This document shows positions 1 through 11,212 of a stretch of 11,212 nucleotides of DNA, piece by piece. The position numbers and the translations under genes are program-made. The first letter of the stretch is position 1, and every line of letters starts with the position of its first letter. Location of the stretch: contig JAISRW010000158.1 of the NCBI GenBank assembly GCA_031273405.1, positions 1 through 11,212 of the forward strand, written 5' to 3'. Source of the stretch: Treponema sp. (lineage in GTDB: Bacteria; Spirochaetota; Spirochaetia; Treponematales; Breznakiellaceae). The notes below the pieces were generated by a model. It did no database searches and was not told where the DNA came from. It saw only the letters and a program-made list of their open reading frames with translations.

Positions 1-798
1 CTTTCCCAGGCCGGGTTTGCGGAACCGCCCAAAACCATTGCCGAATTTGAACGCTGCCTGGAGGCGGTCTCAAAACTGCCGGGGGATATTATTCCCTACG
101 GCGTGGCCACTAAAGACGCTACCGCGGCGAATGATTTTATGCCCTGGCTGTGGACCTTCGGCGGCCGTATATATGACGCGGGTGGCAATGTAACGGTGAA
201 TAGCGCCCAGGGTGTTCAGGCCCTTGCCTGGTACAAAAGTCTGATGGATAAAAAATATATCAGAACCAATATGAGCCGTTTTGATTCCCGCAAGCTTTTT
301 GCCCAGGGCCGCATCGCTTTTTATGACGACGCCATTCTTGCCAAGGGCATCCTCACGGGCAACGGAATTCCCGCGGACCGGCTTTCCCAGCTTGCCCGCC
401 CCATGGTGCGGCCGGTGCTCAAGGCCGGGGATACTTCCCGATCCATGATGTGGGGCCACATGCTGGTGGTATTCGATAAGTCTCCTTCCAAAAGCGATGC
501 GGTGGCCTTTGCGAAACACCTGGTCAGCCAGCCCGTATCCATGCGTTACTTTACCCAGAATGGTATGCCCCCGGTTCTGAAGCCCGTACTTGCCAGTCAG
601 GAGGTACAAAGCGATTTTTGGGTAAGCAACTGGAGTAAAATTACCGCCACCGGAGAATTGGGGGAATTTGATTTGAGCCCCCAGAAAAATCAGCTTACCA
701 CGATCCTCGTGGAAGAACTTCAGGCCTGCCTTATGGGGGATAAAACCCCCCAGCGGGCCGCCGATGATGCCGCATCGCGGCTAAAAACCGTCAGGTAA
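1..798 (+). CDS. ABC sugar transporter solute-binding protein (family 1), C-terminal part, 5' truncated
   Basis: The reading frame is open from the first base to a TAA at 796-798, giving 265 residues of a protein whose N-terminus, including any lipoprotein signal, lies outside the window. It resembles extracellular solute-binding protein family 1, which captures sugars or oligosaccharides outside the membrane and hands them to the permeases. Supporting features are the aromatic segment MPWLWTFGGRIYDAGG near residues 46-61, typical of the ligand cleft, the following NSAQGVQALAWYKSLM helix, a MMWGHMLVVF strand, and a late RYFTQNGMPPVLKPVL segment matching the 'runs out of frame, G-x-P' helix of the family. 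Full-length members have about 410-450 residues, so roughly 150 are missing. Two CUT1 permease genes follow directly. The substrate cannot be read from the sequence. Family assignment is confident; specificity is unknown. Confidence 0.9.
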   Translation, partial: LSQAGFAEPPKTIAEFERCLEAVSKLPGDIIPYGVATKDATAANDFMPWLWTFGGRIYDAGGNVTVNSAQGVQALAWYKSLMDKKYIRTNMSRFDSRKLFAQGRIAFYDDAILAKGILTGNGIPADRLSQLARPMVRPVLKAGDTSRSMMWGHMLVVFDKSPSKSDAVAFAKHLVSQPVSMRYFTQNGMPPVLKPVLASQEVQSDFWVSNWSKITATGELGEFDLSPQKNQLTTILVEELQACLMGDKTPQRAADDAASRLKTVR

Positions 799-818
799 TG
801 TAAAGCTGTTCTTTTACA
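799..818 (+). other. Small hairpin between binding-protein and permease genes
   Basis: TGTAAA at 799-804 pairs with TTTACA at 813-818 around an eight-base loop, starting directly after the stop codon. In many binding-protein operons a hairpin at this point protects the upstream mRNA and helps make more binding protein than permease. That role is inferred; the stem is short and A/T-rich, so it may be chance. Confidence 0.3.
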
Positions 819-855
819 ATTTAAGGTAAAAGAGCGGCGGATGAAGGAGCGGCCC

Positions 856-1749
856 ATGACCGGATTGGAAAAAAGAAAAGGAATCAGCGCCGGACAAACC
901 GGATTTTTGCTGGCCTTGCCGGCAATAGCGGTTTTTTGTGTCATCATCCTCTATCCCTTTATCAATTCCATGGTCATGGGCTTTACCAACAACAGCCTGC
1001 TTTCCCAGGAAACCGCATTTATAGGTTTCGGAAATTACCGGCAGTTGATCACCGATCCCAATTTTTTCGGCGTATTAAAAAATACCGTAGGTTTTGTGAC
1101 AGCCGCCACTTTGCTCCCCTTTGTGACGGGGTTTATCTGGGCGGTTATATTAAACACCAAATTCCGTTTTTCAGAACTGCTCCGGGGAATCACCCTGGTG
1201 AACTGGATCATCCCCGGAGTGGCTATAGGTTTTCTCTGGATGTGGATCTTCCACGGCGAATACGGGGTATTTAACGGGCTTCTGAAATTCTTGGGAATGA
1301 CCAAGGGGAATGTCAACTGGCTTGGCTCCTCAAAAACCGCCATGGCGGCGGTGGTGATTGCCCGGACATGGCAAATGCTGCCCTGGTATATGGCCTTTCT
1401 TTTGGGGGGCCTCCAGGGGATCTCCATGGATCAGCTTGAAGCGGTCAGGATGGACGGCGCGGGGAATCTGCGGGCCTTTTTCTACATCATATTGCCAGAA
1501 ATGAAGGGCATTATCTCCCTGGTTCTTATCCTGGGAACTATCGGCAATCTCCAGCATTTTGATCTTATCTGGGTTATGACCGAGGGGGGGCCGGCCCGGG
1601 CTACCACTACTTTTTCCATTGAAGTGTACCGGAACGCCTTTAAATACTACAACATGGGCTTTGCCGCCGCGGTGGGAACCATCTGGGCGGTTCTATTGTG
1701 CTTTTTTAGTTTTATTTACATACGCCGGGTTCAGGAGGGGGGAGAATGA
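856..1749 (+). CDS. CUT1-type ABC sugar transporter permease, MalF/UgpA-like
   Basis: This 297-residue inner-membrane protein forms half of the translocation channel for the sugar bound by the upstream gene product. Hydrophobic segments lie near residues 15-37, 75-100, 112-132, 160-185, 216-240 and 268-288, consistent with six membrane spans. The cytoplasmic EAA loop that docks the ATPase is clear: EAVRMDGAGNL from residue 195 and LPEMKG from residue 213. The ATG at 856 is preferred because AAGGAG lies six bases before it. An in-frame ATG at 841 has only a weaker purine-rich upstream stretch and would add five residues. The last four bases, ATGA at 1746-1749, overlap the next gene's start, implying coupled translation and a 1:1 heterodimer. 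The sugar carried is not identifiable. Confidence 0.93.
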   Translation: MTGLEKRKGISAGQTGFLLALPAIAVFCVIILYPFINSMVMGFTNNSLLSQETAFIGFGNYRQLITDPNFFGVLKNTVGFVTAATLLPFVTGFIWAVILNTKFRFSELLRGITLVNWIIPGVAIGFLWMWIFHGEYGVFNGLLKFLGMTKGNVNWLGSSKTAMAAVVIARTWQMLPWYMAFLLGGLQGISMDQLEAVRMDGAGNLRAFFYIILPEMKGIISLVLILGTIGNLQHFDLIWVMTEGGPARATTTFSIEVYRNAFKYYNMGFAAAVGTIWAVLLCFFSFIYIRRVQEGGE

Positions 1750-2603
1750 AAAAACGGATCAGCGCCAAACCCCGGTTGTTTTTACCTACCCCGGGGTTCC
1801 GTATTTTCTTTTGGGTCTTTTTGGTTGCAATCGGGGGCTTTGTTTTTTTCCCCCAGTTCTGGATGATCAACACATCGTTTAAGACATCGGCAGATACCTT
1901 CAGGCTCACGGTCTTTTCAAATCCCACGGTGGAAAATTTCAGGAATGTTATATCCAATCCCCGGATATTGACCTATTTAAAAAATTCCCTTTTTGTTTCC
2001 CTGGTCTCGAGTTTTTTCGCCACCTTTGTGTCGGTTTTTGGGGGCTATAGTTTTTCTAAATACCGTTACCGGGGCAGAAAGTCCCTGATGACCCTGGTTA
2101 TGATGAGCCAGGCCTTTCCCCAGGCGATCCTGCTTGTCTCGATTTATCTTATGATGAAACGTTTCGGGCTGCTGGATAATTATCTTTCGATTATTTTGTC
2201 GTATATCACCTTTACCCTGCCGGTGGGGACCTGGACCCTCAAATCCTATTTTGATCAGATCCCCAATTCCCTCATCGAGTCCGCCAGGGTGGACGGGGCC
2301 GGAACGATGACCACTATTTTCCGTATCATCCTGCCCCTGGCAATCCCCGGCATGATCTCTATCGCCATCTACGGTTTTGTCTGGAGCTGGAACGATCTGA
2401 TCTATTCCCTCACCCTGATAACCCAGGGGAATCTCCGCACCCTGGCCCCCGGCCTCCAGCTTACCTATCTGGGAGAATTCCAGAGCAACTGGGGCAATAT
2501 GATGGCCGCCTCCCTCTTCTCGTCGATTCCGGTTACCGTTATGTTTATATTCCTCCAGCGTTACTTCATTTCCGGCCTGACCTCCGGGGCAGTTAAAGGA
2601 TAG
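1746..2603 (+). CDS. CUT1-type ABC sugar transporter permease, MalG/UgpE-like
   Basis: This 285-residue protein is the second channel subunit. It has a short basic N-terminus followed by a long hydrophobic stretch near residues 18-38, then further membrane segments. The EAA loop reads IESARVDGAG from residue 178 and LPLAIPGM from residue 197, the usual form for MalG-type subunits. The tail region with the W-SWNDLIYSL segment and the C-terminal QRYFISGLTSGAVKG motif is very typical of this family. The start overlaps the previous stop (ATGA) and is preceded by AGGAGG at 1733-1738. No ATP-binding protein gene follows: the operon ends at a terminator about 34 bases downstream, so the ATPase must be encoded upstream or elsewhere, as is common in CUT1 systems with a shared ATPase. 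Confidence 0.94.
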   Translation: MKKRISAKPRLFLPTPGFRIFFWVFLVAIGGFVFFPQFWMINTSFKTSADTFRLTVFSNPTVENFRNVISNPRILTYLKNSLFVSLVSSFFATFVSVFGGYSFSKYRYRGRKSLMTLVMMSQAFPQAILLVSIYLMMKRFGLLDNYLSIILSYITFTLPVGTWTLKSYFDQIPNSLIESARVDGAGTMTTIFRIILPLAIPGMISIAIYGFVWSWNDLIYSLTLITQGNLRTLAPGLQLTYLGEFQSNWGNMMAASLFSSIPVTVMFIFLQRYFISGLTSGAVKG

Positions 2604-2636
2604 CCGTCCGGCAACGCGCATAATGGACAACAAATG

Positions 2637-2662
2637 AAAAGCGGGCTTTAGGCCGCTTTTTT
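2637..2662 (+). terminator. Rho-independent terminator of the sugar importer operon
   Basis: AAAAGCGG at 2637-2644 and CCGCTTTT at 2653-2660 form an eight-base-pair stem with an eight-base loop, running into six T residues (2657-2662). It lies 33 bases after the last permease stop. The A-run before the stem gives it some terminator character on the minus strand too, so it could also stop readthrough coming from rpoB. Confidence 0.85.
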
Positions 2663-2665
2663 GGA

Positions 2666-2717
2666 AGCTTTTCCCATCGAACCGGAGATTCGCACTAACC
2701 GAGTTTTGGGAAAAGCT
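2666..2717 (-). repeat. 52-base palindromic repeat, copy 1 (rpoB downstream spacer)
   Basis: AGCTTTTCCCA at 2666-2676 is a perfect inverted repeat of TGGGAAAAGCT at 2707-2717. Read on the minus strand, the whole 52 bases align without gaps to the plus strand at 7251-7302 in the rplJ-rplL spacer, with 42 of 52 identical and 8 of 10 differences being transitions. The internal motif GCGAATCTCCGGTTCGATGG is shared with further elements at 2963-2983 and, in part, 10526-10536. It looks like a small dispersed REP- or MITE-like intergenic element; no coding capacity is seen. Confidence 0.8.
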
Positions 2718-2782
2718 CAGGGCCTTCACAAATTGATGAAAGAATTTCGGCATCAAGCTCCTTTGTGCGCCTGCGAACGGAG

Positions 2783-2845
2783 AACCACGAACCTTCGGTT
2801 CGAAGGTTCGTCAGACCTACGGTCTGCTTCGACTTGGTGGTTTTT
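2783..2845 (+). repeat. Three-way-junction palindrome
   Basis: An outer stem AACCAC (2783-2788) with GTGGTT (2837-2842) encloses two hairpins: CGAACCTTC (2788-2796) with GAAGGTTCG (2802-2810), nine perfect pairs, and CAGACC (2812-2817) with GGTCTG (2821-2826). One base (2788) is claimed by both the outer stem and the first hairpin. Five T residues end the element at 2841-2845, so on the plus strand it could act as a backup terminator. It has the look of a structured intergenic repeat rather than a gene; whether it is transcribed is unknown. Confidence 0.6.
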
Positions 2846-2931
2846 CGTCTTCATTCTCAATTTACGGGGAAGTTTAGGGCTTGCCCCGAGCCTGCCGGTT
2901 ACGGGATGTCCCAGTTCCAATATCCTCCCCT

Positions 2932-3037
2932 AGGAGTTTGTTGCGCTTTGCGCATAAAACCTCACATCGAACTGTAGGTTCGCAACCGCCTGATCGGCGG
3001 TTTTTGAGACTTCATGCGCGAAACGCGGCAAACTCCT
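2932..3037. repeat. 106-base palindromic element just downstream of rpoB
   Basis: The 24-base left arm (2932-2955) and right arm (3014-3037) are inverted copies with 20 of 24 matches, all four differences being transitions. The ends AGGAGTTTG and CAAACTCCT match perfectly. Between them sit a small hairpin (CGAAC 2969-2973 with GTTCG 2978-2982) and a strong one (AACCGCC 2984-2990 with GGCGGTT 2996-3002). The segment at 2963-2983, read on the minus strand, shares 18 of 21 bases with the core of the 52-base repeat. The right end lies only 11 bases beyond the rpoB stop, so rpoB mRNA would carry this structure at its 3' end. Confidence 0.75.
2984..3005 (+). terminator. Terminator-like hairpin inside the palindromic element
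   Basis: AACCGCC (2984-2990), loop TGATC, and GGCGGTT (2996-3002) are followed by T residues up to 3005. Polarity fits plus-strand transcripts, so it would block readthrough from the sugar importer operon into the rpoB antisense strand. On the minus strand no T-run follows, so it is not an obvious rpoB terminator. It may equally be just part of the surrounding repeat. Confidence 0.5.
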
Positions 3038-3048
3038 AACTCCGGGCT

Positions 3049-6000
3049 CTAAAAATTCGAGCCGCTCTTGGCGATCAATTCCTCGTCCCGTTCGGTAAGG
3101 GGAATCTGTTTGTTCTTGTTGTCATAGATGGTGAGGTCCAGCGCCAGGCCGCGCAGTTCCTGTACCAAGACATTGAAGGATTCGGGAATCCCGGCGGTGG
3201 TGGAAGGCTCTCCCTTTACAATGGCCTCGTAGATCTTCGACCGGCCGGTCATGTCGTCGGACTTGATGGTGAGGAGCTCCTGCAGGGTATTGGCGGCGCC
3301 GTAGGCTTCCAGGGCCCAGACCTCCATTTCCCCCAGGCGCTGGCCGCCGAACTGGGCCTTTCCGCCCAAGGGCTGCTGGGTCACCAGGCTGTAGGGGCCC
3401 GTAGACCGGGCGTGCATCTTGTCGTCCACCAGATGGTGAAGCTTGAGGAAGTAAATAATCCCGCAGAAAATGGGATTAACAAAAGGCTCGCCTGTGCGGC
3501 CATCCCTGAGCACGGTCTTGCTGGTTACCGGGAGCCCCGCCTCTTTGAGCTTCTCCTCGATCTGAGCGGTGGAGGGAGACTGAAACACCGGCGCCGAATA
3601 CCATTCGTCCAGGGTGGAACCCGCCCAGCCAAGCTCGGTTTCAAGGAGCTGGCCTATGTTCATACGGGAGGGAACCCCCAGGGGGGTAAGGCAGAGATCC
3701 AGGGGAGTGCCGTCTTCCATATAGGGCATGTCCTCTTCGGGGAGGATCCTGGCGACAACGCCTTTATTGCCGTGGCGGCCGGCCATCTTGTCGCCTTCCC
3801 GAAGCTTGCGCTTGGTGGCGATGAGGACCTTGACCACTTCGTCGACCCCGGGGTTAAGGTCGTCCCCCTCGGCGCGCTTAAGCCGCTGGATGTCGATGAT
3901 GGTCCCTTCGATACCGTGGGGCACCCTGAGGCTCGAATCCCGCACCTCCTTGGCTTTTTCACCAAAGATCGAATTGAGAAGCTTGAATTCCGGCGTAGTT
4001 TCGGTCTCGCTTTTGGGGGTCACCTTGCCGACCAGTATATCCCCTGAACGCACTTTGGCGCCTACCCGGATGATTCCGTCTTCGTCCAGGTTGTCGAGGC
4101 TCTTTTCCGACGTGTTGGGGATATCCCGGATTATCTTTTCCGGCCCCAGTTTGGTCTCCCTCACTTCAATCTGAAATTCCTTGATATGGATGGAGGTGAA
4201 CATATCGTCCTTTACCACCCGTTCTGAAATCAGGATCGAATCTTCGTAGTTGTACCCGTTCCAGGGCATAAATCCCACCAGGATATTCCGGCCCAGGGCA
4301 AGCTCCCCGTTTTTTGTGGCCGGCCCGTCGGCAACCACCTGGCCCGCGGCGATCTTCTCCCCAACTTTGACTATGGGCCGCTGGTTATAGCAGGTGTCCT
4401 GGTTGGTCCGCTGGTATTTCACCAGCTTGTAGGTGTCAAAGCCGTCGGCTGTGGCTTCGGGAATCGCGCTCGAGGCGTCCTCCGGCTTGATGGCAATCTC
4501 CTGGGAAGTAACCCGCACTACGGTCCCGTTCCGCCGGGCCTTGACAAGAACCCCCGAATCATAGGCGCACTTCCCTTCCATGCCCGTACCAACCCTAGGC
4601 GGGTCGGGAAAAACCAGAGGCACCGCCTGGCGTTGCATGTTGCTTCCCATGAGGGCCCGGTTGGCGTCGTCGTGTTCCAGAAAGGGAATGAGCGAAGCGG
4701 ATACCGAAATAATCTGCTTGGGAGACACATCCATGTACTGAATGTCCTCGGGGCCCCGGGTGGTATAATCCCCCTGACGGCGGCAGGAAATTTGATCGTC
4801 CGCGAAAGAACCGTTGGGGGTAAGTTTGGCCGACGCCTGGGCTATATAATAACGGTCCTCGTCCATGGCCGAAAGGTACTCGATCTCTTTGGTCACTACT
4901 CCCTTCACCACCTTGCGATAGGGGGTTTCCAGGAAGCCGTATTCGTTAACCCTGGTATAATTTGCCAGGGACACAATGAGGCCGATATTCGGGCCTTCCG
5001 GTGTTTCAATGGGGCACATGCGGCCGTAGTGGGTATAGTGGACATCCCTGACCTCAAAGCCCGCCCGGTCCCGCGAAAGGCCTCCGGGCCCCAGGGCGTT
5101 AAGCCGCCTCTTGTGGGTCAGCTCCGCCAAGGGGTTCACCTGATCCATAAACTGCGAAAGCTGGCTGGAACCGAAGAATTCCTTGATAACCGCGACTATG
5201 GGCTTTATGGAGATGAGATCCTGGGGCTTAATGGTATCGGTTTCTTTAAGACTCATGCGCTCCCGGGCGATACGGTCCATGCGGCTAAAGGCTGTTTTCA
5301 TGACATTGGCCATGAGCTCGCCCACAGAACGCACCCGCCGGTTCCCCAGGTGGTCAATATCGTCGATGTTTTCGTCGCCTATATACACTTTGATAAGGAA
5401 TTTCATGGTCGCGATGATATCGTCTTTTGTGAGGGTATAATCCTTCTTGACCGACTCATTTTCTGCAATTCTGAGGTCGAATTTCTTGTTCAGTTTATAG
5501 CGCCCTACCCTGCCCAGGTCATAGCGCCGGGGAGTAAAGAATATGCTGTTGAGATCCTTTTCCGCCGCGTCCACGGTGATGGATTCTCCGGGCATGAGGA
5601 CCGAGTAAACCGCCGAGAGAGCGTCTTCCCTGGAGGGTTCGTCCCGGTTGGGATCTTCCTTGACGAATTTGATCTCCTCCCGTTCAAAGCAATTGAGAAG
5701 CATGGGTGAATTGAGGGAACCATCGGCCTCAAAATCGATGACCTCCACCGATTTGACGCTGTTGGCGAGAAGCTCGTCCACATCATGGGGATGAAGCTTG
5801 TCGCCGGCGCGGTAGAGCTTTTTCTTGCCCTCCCTGGAATTCTCATCCGGCGTGGAGACCCATACGGCCTTAGCCAGCACGCGGCCCGAGAATTTTTCAC
5901 GGGTCTCCCTGTCGTCCTCAACCTCCAAGACCTGGATTTTATAGAAAGAACGGATGATCTCTTCCCGGTTCTCGTAGCCCAGGGCCCGGAGGAAAATGGT

Positions 6001-6597
6001 CCCCAGGATGCGCTTTTTCCGGTCAATCTTGGCGTAGATAAGCTCTTTTTTCTGGTCGATTTCGAATTCCAGCCAGCTTCCGCGGTAGGGAATGATCCTG
6101 GACGAAAAGATGCCTTTCTCGTGGCTGAAAACAACGCCCGGGGACCGGTGGATCTGGGAAACCACAACCCGTTCCGCACCGTTGATGATAAAGGTCCCCC
6201 TCTCGCTCATGATGGGAATATCTCCCATATAGATGTCTTTCTGGCGTATTTCGCCGGTTTGCTGGAAGATAAGATTTATCCTGGCTTTGAGAGGAACCGA
6301 ATAGGTCAGCCCTTTCTGCTTACATTCCTGTTCGGTGAGCTTTATGCTTTCCTCATCCAAAGTATAATATTCATACTCCAATATCATATCCCCGTTGGGA
6401 CTTTCGATAGGGAAGGATAACTTGAACACTTCTTCCAGACCCTGGAGATCCGGTTTTTGCTTTTTCCTGAGCTTTTCCCGCTGAAGGAAACGCTCATAAG
6501 AACAGAGCTGAATATCGATGAGATCCGGCAGATCCATCACATCCTGGATATCCTTACCAATATACGTCCGTTTGGCGACAGTTTTTACTTTTGCCAT
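3049..6597 (-). CDS. rpoB: DNA-directed RNA polymerase subunit beta
   Basis: This 1182-residue protein is the beta subunit of RNA polymerase and forms one jaw of the DNA channel, the active-centre wall and the rifamycin pocket. Family landmarks in order: an N-terminal protrusion with [15 protein letters not shown], the Rif region beginning [16 protein letters not shown] at residue 474 and continuing [20 protein letters not shown], then [28 protein letters not shown], the active-centre motif [10 protein letters not shown] at residues 937-946, and the C-terminal clamp segment [20 protein letters not shown]. Residue 500 is Asn (codon at 5098-5100) where E. coli has Ser531, a state linked to natural rifampicin resistance in treponemes. 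The start follows AGGGGG five bases upstream. Length and motifs are complete. Unusually, rpoC does not follow; a repeat-rich spacer and a convergent transporter operon do. Confidence 0.99.
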
Positions 6598-6645
6598 TCC
6601 TTCCCCCTGGTATTTTTCCCGATATATTTTGAAATTACGAAAGGC

Positions 6646-6691
6646 TTCCGGCCGGGACCGGAAACCCCATCCCGGCCTTGAAGGGCCGGGA
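6646..6691 (-). promoter_or_regulatory. Paired hairpins in the rplL-rpoB spacer
   Basis: The 128-base rplL-rpoB spacer contains two GC-rich stems: TCCCGGCC (6670-6677) with GGCCGGGA (6684-6691), eight perfect pairs with a six-base loop, and TTCCGG (6646-6651) with CCGGAA (6658-6663). Neither is followed by a T-run on the minus strand. In E. coli this spacer holds an attenuator and an RNase III site that set beta levels below those of L12. A similar processing or partial-termination role here is inferred from position and structure only. Confidence 0.45.
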
Positions 6692-6725
6692 CTTATGAGA
6701 AAAACAAACTGTTAATTCTGCGAAT

Positions 6726-7118
6726 TTACAGAATTTCAACCGTACCGCCGGCGGCAGTGATTGTTTCTTTGATTTTCGCGGACTCATCCTTGGAGATATT
6801 CTCCTTGAGGGGCTTGGGAGCCCCTTCCACGAGGTCTTTGGCTTCTTTGAGGCCCAGGCCGGTAACGGCCCGAACTTCCTTGATGACCGCAATCTTTTTA
6901 GATGCGTCAAAGGCCTTGAGAATAACCGTGAATTCCGTCTGTTCCTCCGCGGCTTCCGCGGGAGCGGCCCCGGCGGGGGCGGCTCCCGCAGCGGCAATCG
7001 CTACAGGGGCGGCGGCGGAAACACCGAATTTCTCTTCCATGGCCTTAACCAGTTCCGAAACCTCCAGAACCGTCATGGAAGCAATCGCTTCTAAAATCTC
7101 TTCTTTTGTGGCTGCCAT
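6726..7118 (-). CDS. rplL: 50S ribosomal protein L7/L12
   Basis: This 130-residue protein is the flexible stalk protein, present in multiple dimers bound to L10, that recruits elongation factors to the ribosome. The N-terminal dimerisation domain spans about residues 1-33 ([21 protein letters not shown]). An Ala/Gly/Pro hinge follows at about 34-57. The C-terminal factor-binding domain starts at [15 protein letters not shown] and contains the conserved [20 protein letters not shown] and [13 protein letters not shown] segments. Length is normal. GAGGAG lies eight bases before the ATG. It sits between rplJ and rpoB, the classical order. The 198-base gap separating it from rplJ is longer than the other gaps in the cluster and carries a dispersed palindromic repeat. 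Confidence 0.98.
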
Positions 7119-7202
7119 ATTATCTTCTCCTCAATAAATTTACGCGGACCATACGAAACGCGCCGGGACATGCCCGTTAAAACCCGACAGAACAGCAGCG
7201 GC

Positions 7203-7216
7203 GGAACCTTGGTTCC
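7203..7216 (-). other. Short hairpin in the rplJ-rplL spacer
   Basis: GGAACC (7203-7208) and GGTTCC (7211-7216) form a near-perfect palindrome with a two-base centre, between the 52-base repeat and rplL. The stretch immediately upstream on the minus strand is T-rich (AATTTTTGG). Function is unknown; it may contribute to mRNA processing between the L10 and L12 coding regions. Confidence 0.35.
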
Positions 7217-7250
7217 CAAAGCCTGAAGGGCCTGTAAATCCAAAAATTAG

Positions 7251-7302
7251 AACGTTTCCCAAACCCCGGTTAGCGCGAACCTCCGGTTTGACGGGAAAGA
7301 CT
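7251..7302 (+). repeat. 52-base palindromic repeat, copy 2 (rplJ-rplL spacer)
   Basis: This aligns end to end with the minus strand of 2666-2717 (42 of 52 identical). It can fold by pairing TTTCCC (7255-7260) with GGGAAA (7293-7298) and AAACC (7261-7265) with GGTTT (7285-7289), so the rplJL transcript would carry a long hairpin 14 bases after the rplJ stop. It lies in the opposite orientation to copy 1. Presence inside an essential ribosomal operon suggests it is tolerated or has been adopted as an mRNA structure. Confidence 0.75.
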
Positions 7303-7316
7303 CAGTAGGTGCAAAA

Positions 7317-7865
7317 TTACGCCCCGCCGCCTTCGGCCTTCTTGTCGGCGATGGCTTTAACGGTACGCACCAGCCGGGCGGGGATATCGTTGAGGGCCGC
7401 CGCCAGGTTCCGGGCGGGACCGTTCATTACCGACATAAGCATGGAAATAAGCTCCAGCCTGCCGGGGAGCCGGGAAAAAGCCGCTACCTGCCCGGCGTCA
7501 TAAACCGCATGCCCCAAAAGCCCCCCCTTAACACGGAGGGCCGGAACCTCTCTCGCAAAGTCCAGGAGAATCTTGGCGACCTCGTTGGCATCCTTGGGGC
7601 TTATGGTCACCGCCGTGGGGCCTGTCAGATAGCCTGACACATCCGGGGCGGAGAGCTGTTCAAAGGCAATCCGGGCAAAGTTATTTTTGACAACCTTAAA
7701 GCGCGCGTCTTTGTCCCGAAGCCGCCTGCGGAGAGCGGTAATCTGCTCTACCGTAAGACCCCGGTAATCGGCAAAAATAAAGTCGGCTGAACTCTTGAAG
7801 TTTTCTTTGAGCTCATCAATAGCCTGGGTTTTAGAGTCTTGTATTTTTTTCGCTACAATAGCCAT
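7317..7865 (-). CDS. rplJ: 50S ribosomal protein L10
   Basis: This 182-residue protein anchors the L7/L12 dimers to 23S rRNA at the base of the stalk. The N-terminal rRNA-binding domain is recognisable from FADYRGLTVEQITALRRRLR, followed by KVVKNNFARIA and the GPTAVTISPKDANEVAKIL segment. The C-terminal helix that carries L12 dimers runs to a small-residue tail (KKAEGGGA). Its ATG lies three bases after the rplA stop, and its ribosome-binding site AGGAGG is inside the last codons of rplA, so the two are translationally coupled. In E. coli a long leader upstream of rplJ mediates L10 feedback; there is no space for it here, so any L10-dependent control must act elsewhere. Confidence 0.98.
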   Translation of the reverse strand: MAIVAKKIQDSKTQAIDELKENFKSSADFIFADYRGLTVEQITALRRRLRDKDARFKVVKNNFARIAFEQLSAPDVSGYLTGPTAVTISPKDANEVAKILLDFAREVPALRVKGGLLGHAVYDAGQVAAFSRLPGRLELISMLMSVMNGPARNLAAALNDIPARLVRTVKAIADKKAEGGGA

Positions 7866-7868
7866 AGT

Positions 7869-8549
7869 TTAGTCCTCCTTGCTCACAGAGACCCATACGC
7901 CCGGGCCCATAGTAGAAGCCACCGAAATGGTCCTGACGAATTCGCCCTTGGCGTCCACAGGCCGCTTCCTCTGGATTTCGGCAATTACAATCTGAACATT
8001 CTCGGCAAGCTTTTCCGCTTCCATCGAAACCTTGCCTACCGCCAGGTGGACCACTCCGGTCTTGTCGGCCCTGAATTCGGTACGGCCCTTGCGGAGTTCG
8101 GCCAGGGCGCCTTTGAGGTCGAAAGTTACGGTACCGGTCTTGGGGTTGGGCATGAGGCCCTTACGGCCGAGAACCATTCCGAGCTTGCCGACGTCTTTCA
8201 TCATGTCCGGGGTGGCGACGGCCACGTCAAAGCCAATCCAGCCGCCCTTAACCTTTTCGATGAGGTCATCGGCGCCCACAAAGGCCGCTCCGGCGTCCTG
8301 GGCTTCCTTTTCTTTTTCAGGCTTGCAAAAAACCAGAATCTTTTTCTCTTCTTTAAACTGGTTGGGAAGCACGACGGTATCCCGAACGGACTGGCTTTTC
8401 TTGAGGTTTACCTTTACCGAAAGATCCACGGTTTCATCGAATTTCGCGGAAGCCATAGATTTTACCAAATCCATGGCTGCTTTAAGCTCGTAGGCGTCGG
8501 CGGGATTGTATTTCTTAATAGTTTCCCTGTATTTTTTCCCCCGTTTCAT
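7869..8549 (-). CDS. rplA: 50S ribosomal protein L1
   Basis: This 226-residue protein forms the mobile L1 stalk at the E site and in many bacteria represses its own operon by binding mRNA. The diagnostic motif [14 protein letters not shown] is present, with MKRGKKYRE at the N-terminus and [16 protein letters not shown] near the C-terminus. The ATG at 8549 is chosen because it begins the canonical N-terminus and is preceded by GGAGGTG. The frame stays open further upstream, but that stretch overlaps rplK and encodes arginine/histidine-rich sequence unlike L1. The start overlaps the rplK stop (ATGA). Length is typical for the family (about 225-235). Confidence 0.98.
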
Positions 8550-8977
8550 TTTTCCACCTCCACGCCCATGGACCGAGCAGTGCCGGCGATGATCTTCATG
8601 GCGGCATCGATGTCGTTGGCCGAGAGATCGGCCATCTTCAGCCTGGCGATTTCTTCGCACTTCGCTTTTGGAAGCTTGCCTACCTTGGTTTTGTGGGACT
8701 CGGGGGACCCCTTTTCAAGACCCATGGCTTTTTTGATAAGCACTGCGGCCGGCGGGGTTTTGAGTATGAAGGTAAATGACTTGTCCGCATAGACGGTGAT
8801 GACCACAGGAATCACGAGCCCCGGTTCCATGCTCTTTGTCCGGTCGTTAAACTGCTGGACAAACTGGGGGCTGCTGACGCCGTGAGGTCCCAATGCGGGC
8901 CCGACAGGGGGCGCCGGAGTGGCTTTCCCCGCAGGGCACTGCAATTTGATAAGGGCGGCAATTTTTTTCTTTGCCAT
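8546..8977 (-). CDS. rplK: 50S ribosomal protein L11
   Basis: This 143-residue protein binds 23S rRNA in the GTPase-associated centre and forms part of the thiopeptide-binding site. The N-terminal domain has the conserved proline-rich [20 protein letters not shown], and the C-terminal rRNA-binding domain ends with [15 protein letters not shown]. The segment after GPHGV is [19 protein letters not shown], where most bacteria have a form like N-I-M-E-F; to my recollection the form here is that of treponeme L11. GGAG lies six bases before the ATG. It is the first gene after nusG, 66 bases downstream, and overlaps rplA by four bases. Confidence 0.98.
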
Positions 8978-8989
8978 AAAAACTCCTTC

Positions 8990-9037
8990 GTAGTGTGCCC
9001 GGCTGCCGCCGGACTAGCGGGGGAAGCCCCCTCCTAC
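8990..9037 (-). promoter_or_regulatory. Structured leader upstream of rplK (possible L1 feedback site)
   Basis: The 66-base nusG-rplK spacer can fold into a branched structure. GTAG (8990-8993) pairs with CTAC (9034-9037), enclosing CCGG (8999-9002) with CCGG (9009-9012) and GGGGG (9019-9023) with CCCCC (9027-9031). In many bacteria L1 binds a structured leader before rplK to shut down rplKA translation, and this is the expected place. I do not see a clear match to the L1 rRNA-site mimic, so the role is a guess from position. Confidence 0.35.
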
Positions 9038-9043
9038 TTATTG

Positions 9044-9601
9044 CTACAGCTTCTCTACCTGTAGAAGATCAACTTCCACAGGGGTGTTCCGGCCGAAAAT
9101 GCCGACCATCACCTTGAGCTTATTCTTTTCCTGGTTCACTTCTTCGATGGTCCCGGTAAAAGACTCAAAAGGACCATCGATGATCTTAACCTGTTCCCCG
9201 GCGGCAAAGGACTGGCGGGCCCGCGCCGGACGCTCGCCCTTGATCTCGCCGGATTTTTGGAGTATCCCCCTGGCTTCGTCGCCGGTAAGGGGATTGGGTT
9301 TCCGATCCGCTGGGGTGCCTACGAAGCCGGTGACTCCCTGAATCTTTCTGATTTTAGAGGTGGCGGCCTTCCAATCCTGATCGGGGAGATCCATTTCTAC
9401 CAGAATATAACCGGGAAGAAATTTGCGGATCTGGGTCTTTTTCTTGCCGTCCCGGACTTCCACCACTTCTTCTGAGGGGACTTTGACATCTCGGACCACT
9501 TCTTTGTCCAGTTCCCCCATTTCGGTCATCATACGGATGGTCTTTTCTATTTTATTCTCATACCCTGAATAAGTATGGAGGACATACCAGCCCGTAGCCA
9601 T
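9044..9601 (-). CDS. nusG: Transcription termination/antitermination protein NusG
   Basis: This 185-residue protein binds RNA polymerase at the clamp, where its NGN domain suppresses backtracking and pausing, and its C-terminal KOW domain contacts Rho or ribosomal protein S10. The NGN domain starts with the canonical WYVLHTYSGYENKIEKTI and continues through RKFLPGYILVEMDL and IQGVTGFVGT. The KOW domain spans about residues 130-185, with GEQVKIIDGPFESFTGTI and the final FGRNTPVEVDLLQVEKL. Length is normal, without an extra insertion domain. CAGGAG precedes the ATG by about 12 bases. It lies 54 bases after secE, the standard neighbour. Confidence 0.98.
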   Translation of the reverse strand: MATGWYVLHTYSGYENKIEKTIRMMTEMGELDKEVVRDVKVPSEEVVEVRDGKKKTQIRKFLPGYILVEMDLPDQDWKAATSKIRKIQGVTGFVGTPADRKPNPLTGDEARGILQKSGEIKGERPARARQSFAAGEQVKIIDGPFESFTGTIEEVNQEKNKLKVMVGIFGRNTPVEVDLLQVEKL

Positions 9602-9655
9602 ATTTCGTTTTTTCTCCTGCCCGTAACAACGCCCTAAGGGTTTTACGTTTTTCGG

Positions 9656-9835
9656 TTAAAAGATCGCCTGCACACCAAGGAGCAGCAAAACATCCACCAG
9701 GCCCAAAACCGCGGCTATGATTAAGGTGGAAACAATAACAACCTTGACTGAGCTTATTACAGCTTCCCGGCTCGGCCATATAACCTTCCGGAGTTCAGCG
9801 TAAGATTCTTTTATAAACTGAACAATCTTGCCCAT
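9656..9835 (-). CDS. secE: Preprotein translocase subunit SecE
   Basis: This 59-residue single-span inner-membrane protein clamps the two halves of SecY in the protein-export channel. The short amphipathic N-terminal helix contains the family signature ELRKVIWPSREAV (residues 14-26), followed by one hydrophobic membrane segment at about 29-57. It is the short, one-span form found in most bacteria, unlike the three-span E. coli protein. AGGAAGG lies seven bases before the ATG. Its position just before nusG is nearly universal and supports the call. A 248-base repeat-filled stretch separates it from tRNA-Trp upstream. Confidence 0.96.
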   Translation of the reverse strand: MGKIVQFIKESYAELRKVIWPSREAVISSVKVVIVSTLIIAAVLGLVDVLLLLGVQAIF

Positions 9836-9878
9836 GCCGTCCCTTCCTACTTTAGTTTAAATCCCAAGCACAACAGAC

Positions 9879-9937
9879 TCGAAGCCTACTGCCTCTGTTC
9901 GCTGTGCTAGAAACACTCCCAAGCGCAGTAGGCTTCG
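9879..9937 (-). repeat. 59-base repeat, copy A, containing a tRNA-Trp 3'-end fragment
   Basis: This matches 10043-10101 at 55 of 59 positions, all four differences being transitions, at an offset of 164 bases. CGAAGCCTACTGC (9880-9892) and GCAGTAGGCTTCG (9925-9937) are a perfect 13-base inverted repeat. The 18 bases at 9920-9937 equal the 3' end of the tRNA-Trp gene with two changes, but the rest of the tRNA is absent. It lies between secE and tRNA-Trp. Confidence 0.85.
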
Positions 9938-9977
9938 CCTTCCAGCCCTCAACCTCCTGTTTCGGGCTTCCAGTCCG

Positions 9978-10041
9978 GGGTTTAGCCCTGCCGGGGCCAT
10001 TCATGGCCCCTTTTCCTCCCGCAGGTCGGCGGGCTAAACCC
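9978..10041. repeat. 64-base nested palindrome between the two 59-base repeat copies
   Basis: GGGTTTAGCCC (9978-9988) and GGGCTAAACCC (10031-10041) form a perfect 11-base outer stem. Inside, GGGGCCA (9993-9999) pairs with TGGCCCC (10004-10010) around TTCA. TTTT follows the inner hairpin on the plus strand only. The right arm ends one base before copy B of the 59-base repeat, suggesting that the two elements are parts of one composite unit. Confidence 0.75.
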
Positions 10042-10042
10042 T

Positions 10043-10101
10043 TCGAAGCCTACCGCCTCTGTCCGCTGTGCTAGAAACACTCCCAGGCGCAGTAGGCCTC
10101 G
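10043..10101 (-). repeat. 59-base repeat, copy B, overlapping the tRNA-Trp 3' end
   Basis: This is the partner of 9879-9937. Its last 18 bases (10084-10101) are the 3' acceptor and T-arm strand of functional tRNA-Trp. The sequence at 10044-10056 is complementary to part of this tRNA segment: in minus-strand RNA all 13 positions pair, with two G-U wobbles. The primary transcript therefore carries an anti-tRNA sequence about 27 bases beyond the tRNA 3' end. Confidence 0.85.
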
Positions 10102-10156
10102 AACCCACGACCTGCGGTTTTGGAGACCGCTGCTCTACCAACTGAGCTATACGCCT
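10084..10156 (-). tRNA. trnW: tRNA-Trp (anticodon CCA)
   Basis: A complete 73-base cloverleaf: acceptor AGGCGTA/TGCGCCT (one G-U pair), D arm GCTC/GAGC, anticodon stem GCGGT/ACCGC with loop CTCCAAA (anticodon CCA), a five-base variable loop AGGTC, T arm GTGGG/CCTAC with loop TTCGAGG, and discriminator G as expected for tRNA-Trp. The CCA end is not encoded. It begins eight bases after the rpmG stop and upstream of secE, the common bacterial order. Its 3' end is shared with the 59-base repeat. Confidence 0.97.
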
Positions 10157-10164
10157 AATTCAGC

Positions 10165-10338
10165 TCATTTCACTTTGGTCTCTTTGTGCAGAGTATGCTT
10201 CCGATCAAAGGGACAATATTTACTCAAGGTCAGCTTTTCCTGGGTATTCCGCCGATTTTTTTGGGTGGTATAATTCCGCCGCTTACATTCGCTGCACTGA
10301 AGCGCCACCAACTCTACGGCCTGTTTTTTACTCGCCAT
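10165..10338 (-). CDS. rpmG: 50S ribosomal protein L33
   Basis: This 57-residue basic protein of the large subunit lies near the E site. The sequence [20 protein letters not shown], followed by [18 protein letters not shown], is typical L33. The ATG at 10338 is chosen because it starts the usual [12 protein letters not shown]-terminus and GGAGG lies just upstream; an earlier in-frame ATG at 10371 would add 11 residues not typical of L33. Zinc-binding L33 has two CxxC pairs. Here the first (C15, C18) is intact, but the second is CPFD, with Asp at residue 45, so only three cysteines remain. This could be a Cys3-Asp/His zinc site or an intermediate on the way to the zinc-free form. It lies between tRNA-Thr and tRNA-Trp, as in many bacteria. 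Confidence 0.97.
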
Positions 10339-10422
10339 ATATTCCTCCGTTAAAACACAAATAAGGCGCAAAACCCTCGATCAGACAAACAAAGCGCCGC
10401 CGGCTTGTCTTTTCGGTCTTCT

Positions 10423-10548
10423 CTAGCAGCCTGTTGCACTTGTAGGTTTTTTGCATATTCATGCAAAAAACCTCGATCAACGGGCATGCTTTCGGAGTTT
10501 GCCCCAAATTTATACCTTGCAAACTCCCATCGAACCACAGGCTGCTAG
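10423..10548. repeat. 126-base nested palindromic element between rpmG and tRNA-Thr
   Basis: Perfect outer arms CTAGCAGCCTGT (10423-10434) and ACAGGCTGCTAG (10537-10548) enclose two hairpins: a perfect 13-base stem AGGTTTTTTGCAT (10444-10456) with ATGCAAAAAACCT (10461-10473), and GGAGTTTGC (10494-10502) with GCAAACTCC (10519-10527). The GGAGTTTG/CAAACTCC pair also bounds the element at 2932-3037, and CCCATCGAACC at 10526-10536 is identical to 2673-2683. A partial sister motif (GCAAAACCCTCGATCA, 10368-10383) lies between it and rpmG. It would be transcribed between tRNA-Thr and rpmG. Confidence 0.8.
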
Positions 10549-10557
10549 AAGACACAA

Positions 10558-10630
10558 AGCCCTCGAACGGAATCGAACCGTTGACCTTATCCTTACCATG
10601 GATATGCTCTGCCAACTGAGCTACAAGGGC
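10558..10630 (-). tRNA. trnT: tRNA-Thr (anticodon GGU)
   Basis: A complete 73-base cloverleaf: acceptor GCCCTTG/CGAGGGC with one wobble, D arm GCTC/GAGC, anticodon stem TATCC/GGATA with loop ATGGTAA (anticodon GGT), variable loop AGGTC, T arm AACGG/CCGTT with loop TTCGATT, and discriminator T. The CCA end is not encoded. It is the first gene of the cluster, directly after a good promoter, and tRNA-Thr upstream of the rpmG/tRNA-Trp/secE group is common in bacteria. Confidence 0.97.
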
Positions 10631-10639
10631 ATGCTGACA

Positions 10640-10669
10640 AGTCTACCGAATCTGAATAAAAAGAGTCAA
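10640..10669 (-). promoter_or_regulatory. Sigma70-type promoter of the tRNA-Thr/rpmG/secE/nusG cluster
   Basis: On the minus strand TTGACT (10664-10669) and TAGACT (10640-10645) are spaced 18 bases apart. The -35 matches consensus at five of six positions and the -10 at four of six. The tRNA-Thr 5' end is ten bases beyond the -10 box, so initiation would begin within a few bases of the mature tRNA, as is usual for stable-RNA promoters. A TATAAT further upstream at about 10712-10717 lacks a matching -35. Confidence 0.7.
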
Positions 10670-10942
10670 TAGGGCAACCCCGCAAATGCCGTCTGTCAGA
10701 GTGAATGTATATTATAGAAGATTTATGTTGATAAATAGGCACCTCTGGAACGGCGCGGCGCTTGCGGATGAGCAAAAACAATCCGGACAGTCATGGTCGT
10801 GTACGCATTGCTTCCGCGTCAAACGCGGCGTTAGCGGCGTTTTCAGCTCATGCGGCGTATGTGAAATGATAAATCTAGCGCCGCTCTGTTATCTTCCTTC
10901 TATTATATGCACACGCGAAGGGGACTGCACTAACGGGGCTAA
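10670..10942. other. Spacer upstream of the cluster promoter, no gene recognised
   Basis: A plus-strand frame is open from 10686 to 11120, but its translation has no recognisable domain, no convincing ribosome-binding site, and runs through a tandem repeat. I see only small palindromes: CCGCGT (10814-10819) with ACGCGG (10823-10828), and AGCGGCG (10833-10839) with CGCCGCT (10879-10885). A/T-rich sequence around 10705-10735 may help the tRNA-Thr promoter as an upstream element. Confidence 0.5.
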
Positions 10943-11103
10943 GGCTCGCGCCCGTGTCGGGCAGAGGCTCGCCCCCGTGTCGGACAGAAGTCCACACATG
11001 GGTCATGTACAGATTCGTACCCGACCCATGTACCGAATCGAACCTAGGCCATGTACGAATTTGCGTCCATATCAGGCAGAGACCCGCGTCCGTACGGGCG
11101 AAA
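10943..11103 (+). repeat. Degenerate 23-base tandem repeat, seven units
   Basis: Units begin at 10943, 10966, 10989, 11012, 11035, 11058 and 11081, exactly 23 bases apart. Units 1 and 2 (GGCTCGCGCCCGTGTCGGGC and GGCTCGCCCCCGTGTCGGAC, each followed by AGA) match at 21 of 23. Units 3-5 share CATGTAC at the same phase (11004, 11027, 11050). Unit 6 ends GGCAGA like unit 1, matching it at 15 of 23 with every difference a transition. There are no spacers, so it is not a CRISPR. The period is not a multiple of three, arguing against a repeated protein. Confidence 0.75.
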
Positions 11104-11128
11104 GGCGACTGAATGGGTGACGGCGGGT

Positions 11129-11212
11129 TCAGTCCGGCAGGAAGGTTTTGTCAATATCGGCAGCAATCCGGCTGGAAAGACGCACGGCAAGCTCCTTTCG
11201 GATTTTGAGCGG
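11129..11212 (-). CDS. C-terminal end of an unidentified protein, 5' part outside the window
   Basis: The minus strand is open from the window edge to TGA at 11129-11131, encoding 27 residues ending IAADIDKTFLPD. The composition, with alternating hydrophobic and charged residues (KIRKELAVRLSSRIAADIDK), looks like a real amphipathic C-terminal helix, and the opposite strand reads less naturally. I do not recognise the family. It is transcribed in the same direction as the tRNA-Thr cluster and ends 26 bases from the tandem repeat. No terminator hairpin with a T-run is visible between them. It is too short for certainty. Confidence 0.5.
   Translation of the reverse strand, partial: PLKIRKELAVRLSSRIAADIDKTFLPD

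Follow-up and report, generated by a model that had tools for sequence, protein, structure and literature searches.

Can rpoB and rpoC, which encode the two large subunits (β and β′) of one enzyme, RNA polymerase, and are nearly always neighbours on one message, come apart on a treponeme chromosome? The question is raised by an 11,212-nucleotide (nt) stretch of Treponema sp. DNA (assembly GCA_031273405.1, contig JAISRW010000158.1, positions 1 to 11,212; referred to below as the window), in which rpoB is followed by a 445-nt spacer and a convergent sugar-type ATP-binding cassette (ABC) transporter operon. A sequence-only reading of the window had offered two explanations, a true split of the pair or an assembly join error. 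We consider it likely that the separation is real on the chromosome and, probably, one more, young case of a recurrent uncoupling of rpoB and rpoC within one treponeme family, to which the window organism appears, from its RpoB, to belong or to be close.

rpoB without rpoC in the window

The minus strand of the window carries secE–nusG–rplK–rplA–rplJ–rplL–rpoB, followed by the spacer and by the ABC operon that converges on rpoB (Table 1; gene names other than rpoB were assigned by reading the translations). The genes found ahead of rpoB in the canonical operon are all present on the same strand, and the place past rpoB where the rpoC start is expected, within about 300 nt and on that strand, is taken up by 2.6 kb of the other operon. 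A hidden or decayed rpoC inside the window was ruled out by a search with the RpoC of a relative (the rpoC of relatives is one gene, 1435 amino acids (aa) in G008), which found no RpoC in the window (best E-value, 0.35). Truncation of rpoB as the cause was likewise ruled out, since its open reading frame (ORF) is intact (Table 1). The absence of rpoC behind rpoB, the 445 bases of palindromic repeats past the rpoB stop and the convergent sugar-transporter operon, all described in the sequence-only reading, were therefore borne out by the RpoC query, by the three stems located in the spacer and by the Pfam matches of the transporter genes, respectively.

The minus strand of the spacer folds better than its shuffled versions (z = −6.4; none of 100 shuffles was equally good). 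One of its hairpins, with an A-run and a T-run, may serve as a terminator common to rpoB and the ABC operon; it was called on the minus strand and read by eye on the plus strand, and the number of terminator-like hairpins on the minus strand (one, against a shuffle mean of 1.4) is by itself not above chance. No sigma70-like promoter was found in positions 2400–3250, and the spacer gave no match to plasmid records.

That rpoC normally starts within a few hundred bases of rpoB, as the earlier reading had assumed, was confirmed by 80 rpoB loci fetched from species genomes: in 75 of the 76 with room of 1 kb or more behind the gene, rpoC lies 13–285 nt past rpoB, the exception (L005, genome G005) belonging to the family of the window's relatives. 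Since L001–L005 and L008 sit in genomes of the window's family, the pair is adjacent in all 70 of the remaining loci with enough room, none of which is a known member of it. The pair also stays together in the comparison family of G007, from which 195 genomes were drawn evenly: among the 134 with both places listed (a count that omits 15 genomes with a listed place for rpoB whose rpoC place fell outside the listing, and one of the two G335 rpoB copies), the rpoC match follows that of rpoB at 23–265 nt (median 31) in 133, and in the remaining genome, G203, the rpoB match stops at residue 1082 and rpoC is on another contig. Note that, past rpoC, translations read from L009–L012 include rpsL-like ORFs and those from L001, L003, L004 and L008 other ORFs; the link between rpoC and the str operon appears to be lost as well in the latter four.

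Separated pairs among related treponemes

The comparison of gene order after rpoB that the sequence-only reading had proposed was run on 195 genomes of the window's family: the pair is adjacent in 121, parted by an insert in 8 and separated in 20, and 46 are unresolved. In 110 genomes the rpoC match lies 24–317 nt past the rpoB match on the same contig (distances being taken between matched ends, slightly above the true spacer), and 11 more (G037, G064, G100, G104, G116, G145, G155, G158, G163, G170 and G193) proved adjacent once contig ends were read. Same-contig distances, counted with the eight inserts and uncorrected for kinship, are larger than in the comparison family (median 89 versus 31; Mann–Whitney p = 5e-9). 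The inserts measure 0.8–1.9 kb. Seven of them (G087, G096, G097, G127, G189, G190 and G191; L169–L175) hold one 587–610 aa ORF on the same strand, and the three of these ORFs that were scanned are Cache–HAMP–MCP chemoreceptors, so that RNA polymerase and a chemoreceptor may share a transcript in such genomes. The eighth insert, in G147, holds a 202-aa ORF without a Pfam match.

The 20 separated pairs fall into three groups: (i) ten two-sided splits (G005, G086, G090, G091, G111, G113, G123, G124, G141 and G143), in which other sequence covers 1.2 kb or more past rpoB and 0.9 kb or more ahead of rpoC; (ii) five visible from the rpoB side only (G050, G089, G093, G108 and G149; at least 1.0 kb); and (iii) five visible from the rpoC side only (G076, G084, G085, G142 and G179; at least 1.0 kb). 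The requirement of at least 0.9 kb of other sequence excludes contig ends by themselves as the source of the counted splits. G122 (445 nt after rpoB), G110 (293 nt after rpoB) and G140 (rpoB cut) were left unresolved. G142, counted in the third group, shows another rpoC match, at the end of a contig, and may be mixed; in G037, an additional rpoC contig with other upstream genes was left unused because this genome, which may also be mixed, has an adjacent pair. The rpoBC genes of G017 are adjacent but frame-shifted in the record: at L308 (G017:C1:2318000-2331000), rpoB and rpoC lie in many frame-shifted pieces, probably through sequencing errors.

In a FastTree tree of RpoB (117 rows, midpoint rooting for drawing), the window lies next to G144 (support 90), and G194, G195 and G197 complete a group of five (support 97). 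Seven split genomes (G005, G086, G089, G090, G091, G141 and G143) fall within one region of the tree, five of them forming a supported clade, and the remaining split genomes are scattered over it. Changes between the adjacent and the split state number nine with the window, eight without it and five if two-sided splits only are counted; this count uses 113 of the 117 rows, leaving out G122, G110, G140 and the outgroup G007, and scores insert genomes as adjacent, the five genomes split on the rpoC side only being absent from the tree.

What lies at the opened border is best seen in G111, in which the contig with rpoB ends in exactly the 119 nt with which the contig of rpoC starts. Exact overlap between neighbouring contigs is common in de Bruijn assembly, and the overlap thus implies a collinear order on one strand, rpoB, about 22.6 kb of other DNA and rpoC, the length following by arithmetic from the contig coordinates and the overlap. 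The gene immediately past rpoB in this arrangement is on the minus strand, and sugar genes lie inside the island. Ten of its proteins were scanned: a GH67 alpha-glucuronidase, a GH42 beta-galactosidase, two ABC permeases, a solute-binding protein, two Gfo/Idh/MocA oxidoreductases, an AraC regulator, a PIN-domain protein and an NADH:flavin oxidoreductase. G108 and G111 have common genes past rpoB (65–87% identical), and a GH42 beta-galactosidase at the rpoB of G113 is 80% identical to the one in the G111 island. Together with the G111 overlap, these common genes argue that the splits are not all assembly accidents. No contig overlap was found in the other nine of the ten genomes compared (eight further two-sided splits and G089, G091 being left out).

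Elsewhere, the opened border is filled differently. G123 has a xylulokinase gene 1.4 kb upstream of rpoC, and other splits have tRNA synthetases (G124, G090), DNA methylases (G005, G141) or an OLD-type ATPase (G086) as neighbours. The sugar transporter of the window fits the content seen in G111 and G123, yet genes of this kind may just be widespread in these genomes, and identity between its ABC permeases and those of the G111 island is no more than 22–27%. Altogether, eight inserts and 20 stretches of other sequence among the 195 genomes place different accessory DNA at the same border in relatives. No integrase or transposase family was found among the proteins scanned, many island ORFs lying outside the scan and no att-repeat search having been made. 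As a side observation, the locus past rpoB in G086 (L159), which holds the OLD-type ATPase, a 375-aa ORF and an 813-aa ORF without Pfam or NCBIfam match, is possibly a defence locus.

If rpoC is detached from rpoB, it should be transcribed on its own, and the sequence-only reading had indeed suggested separate promoters for β and β′. A sigma70-like site within 150 nt before rpoC, scored against dinucleotide shuffles, was found at p ≤ 0.05 in six of 15 split genomes versus none of 63 adjacent loci, in which some genomes appear twice and rpoB coding sequence makes up most of the 150 nt. The matches cover 11 of 12 consensus bases in G005, G076, G086, G141 and G142, and 9 in G143; since the sites of G005 and G076 are alike and both lie 47 nt ahead of rpoC, the six are not all independent. 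Two genomes narrowly miss the threshold (G084, 0.067; G179, 0.070), and a looser run (250 nt, single-base shuffles) placed seven of the 15 at or below 0.05. These candidate promoters, known as sequence matches, suggest that rpoC may be expressed independently in some split relatives, and it is for these that the idea of separate promoters finds support. The hits lie mostly within the tree part that holds the seven grouped splits, a distribution that would fit a break first and a dedicated promoter later.

Rearrangement or assembly error

The nearest rows of the window in the RpoB tree, G144, G194, G195 and G197, all have adjacent rpoBC. Therefore, no close relative shares the window's split, which is thus a separate, probably young event, or an error. 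This observation weighs against a real separation, as do several others. The window join rests on one record, and the spacer, being rich in repeats, is a place where an assembler could misjoin. The arrangement is seen in no other genome of the family, because only G017 among the 195 (up to 12 candidates scored per genome) has a relative of permease 1 at E ≤ 1e-60 (81% identical). All the splits seen lie over separate contigs, and the four pairs found on contigs of at least 3 Mb (G144, G146, G019 and G017) are adjacent. Nine of the 15 detached rpoC genes, including those of G111, G113, G123 and G124, have no promoter match at p ≤ 0.05. Finally, the comparison family includes better-assembled genomes than the window's family and is therefore an imperfect control for chimeric contigs.

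Were the join an error, two contigs or strains would have been fused via dispersed repeats at 2604–3048, and the true genome would have rpoC directly after rpoB. Of the nine genomes searched, three hold dispersed parts of the spacer: G113 has at least 41 matches, G102 at least 19 and G146 2 (with up to 40 candidates scored), and the other six have none at E ≤ 1e-3; this dispersal, the adjacent pairs of the nearest relatives and the single record all speak for an error. However, the repeat copies of the window itself, an inverted pair at 2670–2718 in the spacer and at 7250–7298 in the rplL–rplJ spacer, are 84% identical over 49 nt, and a difference of 16% makes a misjoin through exact words less likely. 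Moreover, the comparison family contains no clear false split, its one non-adjacent genome having a cut rpoB; the matched ends of adjacent pairs lie 23–317 nt apart, not 445 nt or more; and a hairpin between convergent genes is a normal gene end. We regard a join error as unlikely. Of the two options left by the sequence-only reading, the true split is favoured by the relatives, 20 of 195 being separated, ten of them on both sides, some with near-consensus promoters before rpoC. The idea that the repeats caused the break found no support: parts of the spacer occur dispersed in three of the nine genomes, and gene order is unbroken at the repeat copy between rplL and rplJ.

With a real separation, the conserved rpoB–rpoC junction would have been opened on the chromosome of the window organism. 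The ancestral secE–nusG–rplKAJL–rpoB unit would now end at rpoB, in a hairpin-rich 3′ region in which rpoB transcripts would terminate, with an accessory sugar-transporter operon convergent beyond it. The rpoC gene would lie elsewhere, either past an accessory insertion of the kind implied in G111 or in an unlinked position, and would be transcribed from another promoter; insertion may have come first and reshuffling later. If rpoC still lies downstream on the same strand, past an island that starts with the ABC operon, the unit is interrupted and not relocated. Such an order, with a minus-strand gene after rpoB and sugar genes inside, is what the 119-nt overlap implies for G111, and the smaller inserts of 0.8–1.9 kb in eight genomes also favour it, but only this one island is bridged, the other nine genomes compared having no overlap, and the neighbours of rpoB and rpoC vary from genome to genome among the seven grouped splits, which fits relocation or reshuffling instead. 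A collinear insertion is a serious candidate, to which we give a little under half of our credence. Alternatively, an inversion or translocation breakpoint just past rpoB could have left rpoC unlinked. A convergent operon is expectable at an inversion breakpoint; the G017 relative of the ABC operon, identical to it in gene order, lies about 327 kb from the G017 rpoBC; and the tree-grouped splits differ in their housekeeping or accessory neighbours on each side. Against this stands the fact that the breakpoint of the window is seen in no other genome, and we view relocation as possible but somewhat doubtful.

For the family as a whole, we lean, with reservations, towards a junction that, although hardly ever broken elsewhere, acts here as a recurrent insertion point, opened several times independently and filled with sugar-use, chemoreceptor and other accessory genes, with some, probably older, splits having gained a strong rpoC promoter that would make β and β′ separate regulatory units.

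Known parallels and further features of the window

Changes in the linkage of β and β′ are known from other bacteria. In Helicobacter and Wolbachia, rpoB and rpoC are fused; these cases, like the present one, indicate that the physical linkage of the two subunits can change, although by fusion there and by separation here (the NCBIfam models for fused β/β′, PRK09603 and PRK14844, appear below cut-off). In some cyanobacteria and chloroplasts, rpo genes are dispersed and rpoB does not lie beside an rpoC-type gene, so the separated state is not without precedent; there, however, rpoC is split into rpoC1 and rpoC2, whereas it is one gene here and the separation recurs within one family. This recurrence is what seems to be new. 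Compared with genomic-island insertion sites, the junction is similar in being a conserved border with different accessory genes in relatives (sugar use, chemoreceptor, DNA methylases, OLD-type ATPase), but it lies inside an essential operon and not at a tRNA gene, and no integrase or transposase was seen among the proteins scanned.

In the open-access literature searched, judged by titles and abstract openings and with long lists covered in part, no paper on a separation of rpoB from rpoC in bacteria came up. The closest parallel comes from the parts of PMC8046335 considered here, which describe how inserted genes open the secE–rpoBC–str–S10 cluster, many species then losing the neighbourhood altogether. 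Both cases concern a conserved transcription and translation cluster that is opened by insertions and whose neighbourhood is then lost in many descendants. As far as those parts of the study go, however, its insertions separate rpoBC from str, str from S10 and rplL from rsmC, and spirochetes are outside its scope; here the break is in spirochetes and one step deeper, between rpoB and rpoC. PMC13067680 makes no mention of rpoB or rpoC.

Repeated separation beside close relatives that keep the pair amounts to a natural experiment on whether RNA polymerase can be assembled in balance only if the two genes are linked in an operon. The family also bears on how a gene that loses its operon comes by a promoter and on how accessory DNA enters essential operons. 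On the practical side, binning or checking of such genomes should not presuppose that rpoB and rpoC are adjacent.

Table 1. Features of the window, with positions, strand and the basis of each call.
Feature	Position	Strand	Basis
Solute-binding protein, sugar-type ABC transporter	1..798	+	ORF; Pfam SBP_bac_8, E 2e-12; 5′ end cut by window
ABC transporter permease 1, sugar type	841..1749	+	ORF; Pfam BPD_transp_1
ABC transporter permease 2, sugar type, convergent neighbour of rpoB	1746..2603	+	ORF; Pfam BPD_transp_1
445-nt spacer with hairpins and dispersed repeats, where the rpoC start is expected	2604..3048	.	Folding, repeat search, no RpoC match
Hairpin with A-run and T-run, possible terminator common to rpoB and ABC operon	2637..2660	.	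Minus-strand call; plus-strand reading by eye
Perfect 11-nt stem	2787..2811	.	
108-nt hairpin directly 3′ of rpoB	2931..3038	.	34-nt arms 2931–2964 / 3005–3038, 79% complementary
rpoB, RNA polymerase β, 1182 aa, intact	3049..6597	-	ORF; NCBIfam TIGR02013, 1750 bits
rplL (L7/L12)	6726..7118	-	ORF; translation read
rplJ (L10)	7317..7865	-	ORF; translation read
rplA (L1)	7869..8549	-	ORF, start placed by eye; translation read
rplK (L11)	8546..8977	-	ORF; translation read
nusG	9044..9601	-	ORF; translation read
secE, 59 aa	9656..9835	-	ORF; translation read

Among the family matches listed for the window RpoB, the top one is G115 (90% identical); a comparison with viral contigs gave a single partial match of 65%, which is uninformative. 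The best NCBIfam matches of permease 2 are GlcU and MalG, both under their cut-offs. The GC content of the ABC genes (49–55%) is similar to that of the core genes (52–57%), a point in favour of a real join. An Rfam scan of the window returned nothing but two tRNAs. A 59-nt direct repeat (93%) is found at 9879–9937 and 10043–10101, its second copy overlapping one end of a tRNA-Trp (10083–10157); it is possibly a partial tRNA duplication or an insertion trace. Finally, a 23-nt tandem pair (87% alike) lies at 10936–10981, near the right end of the window, in a stretch without an identified gene.

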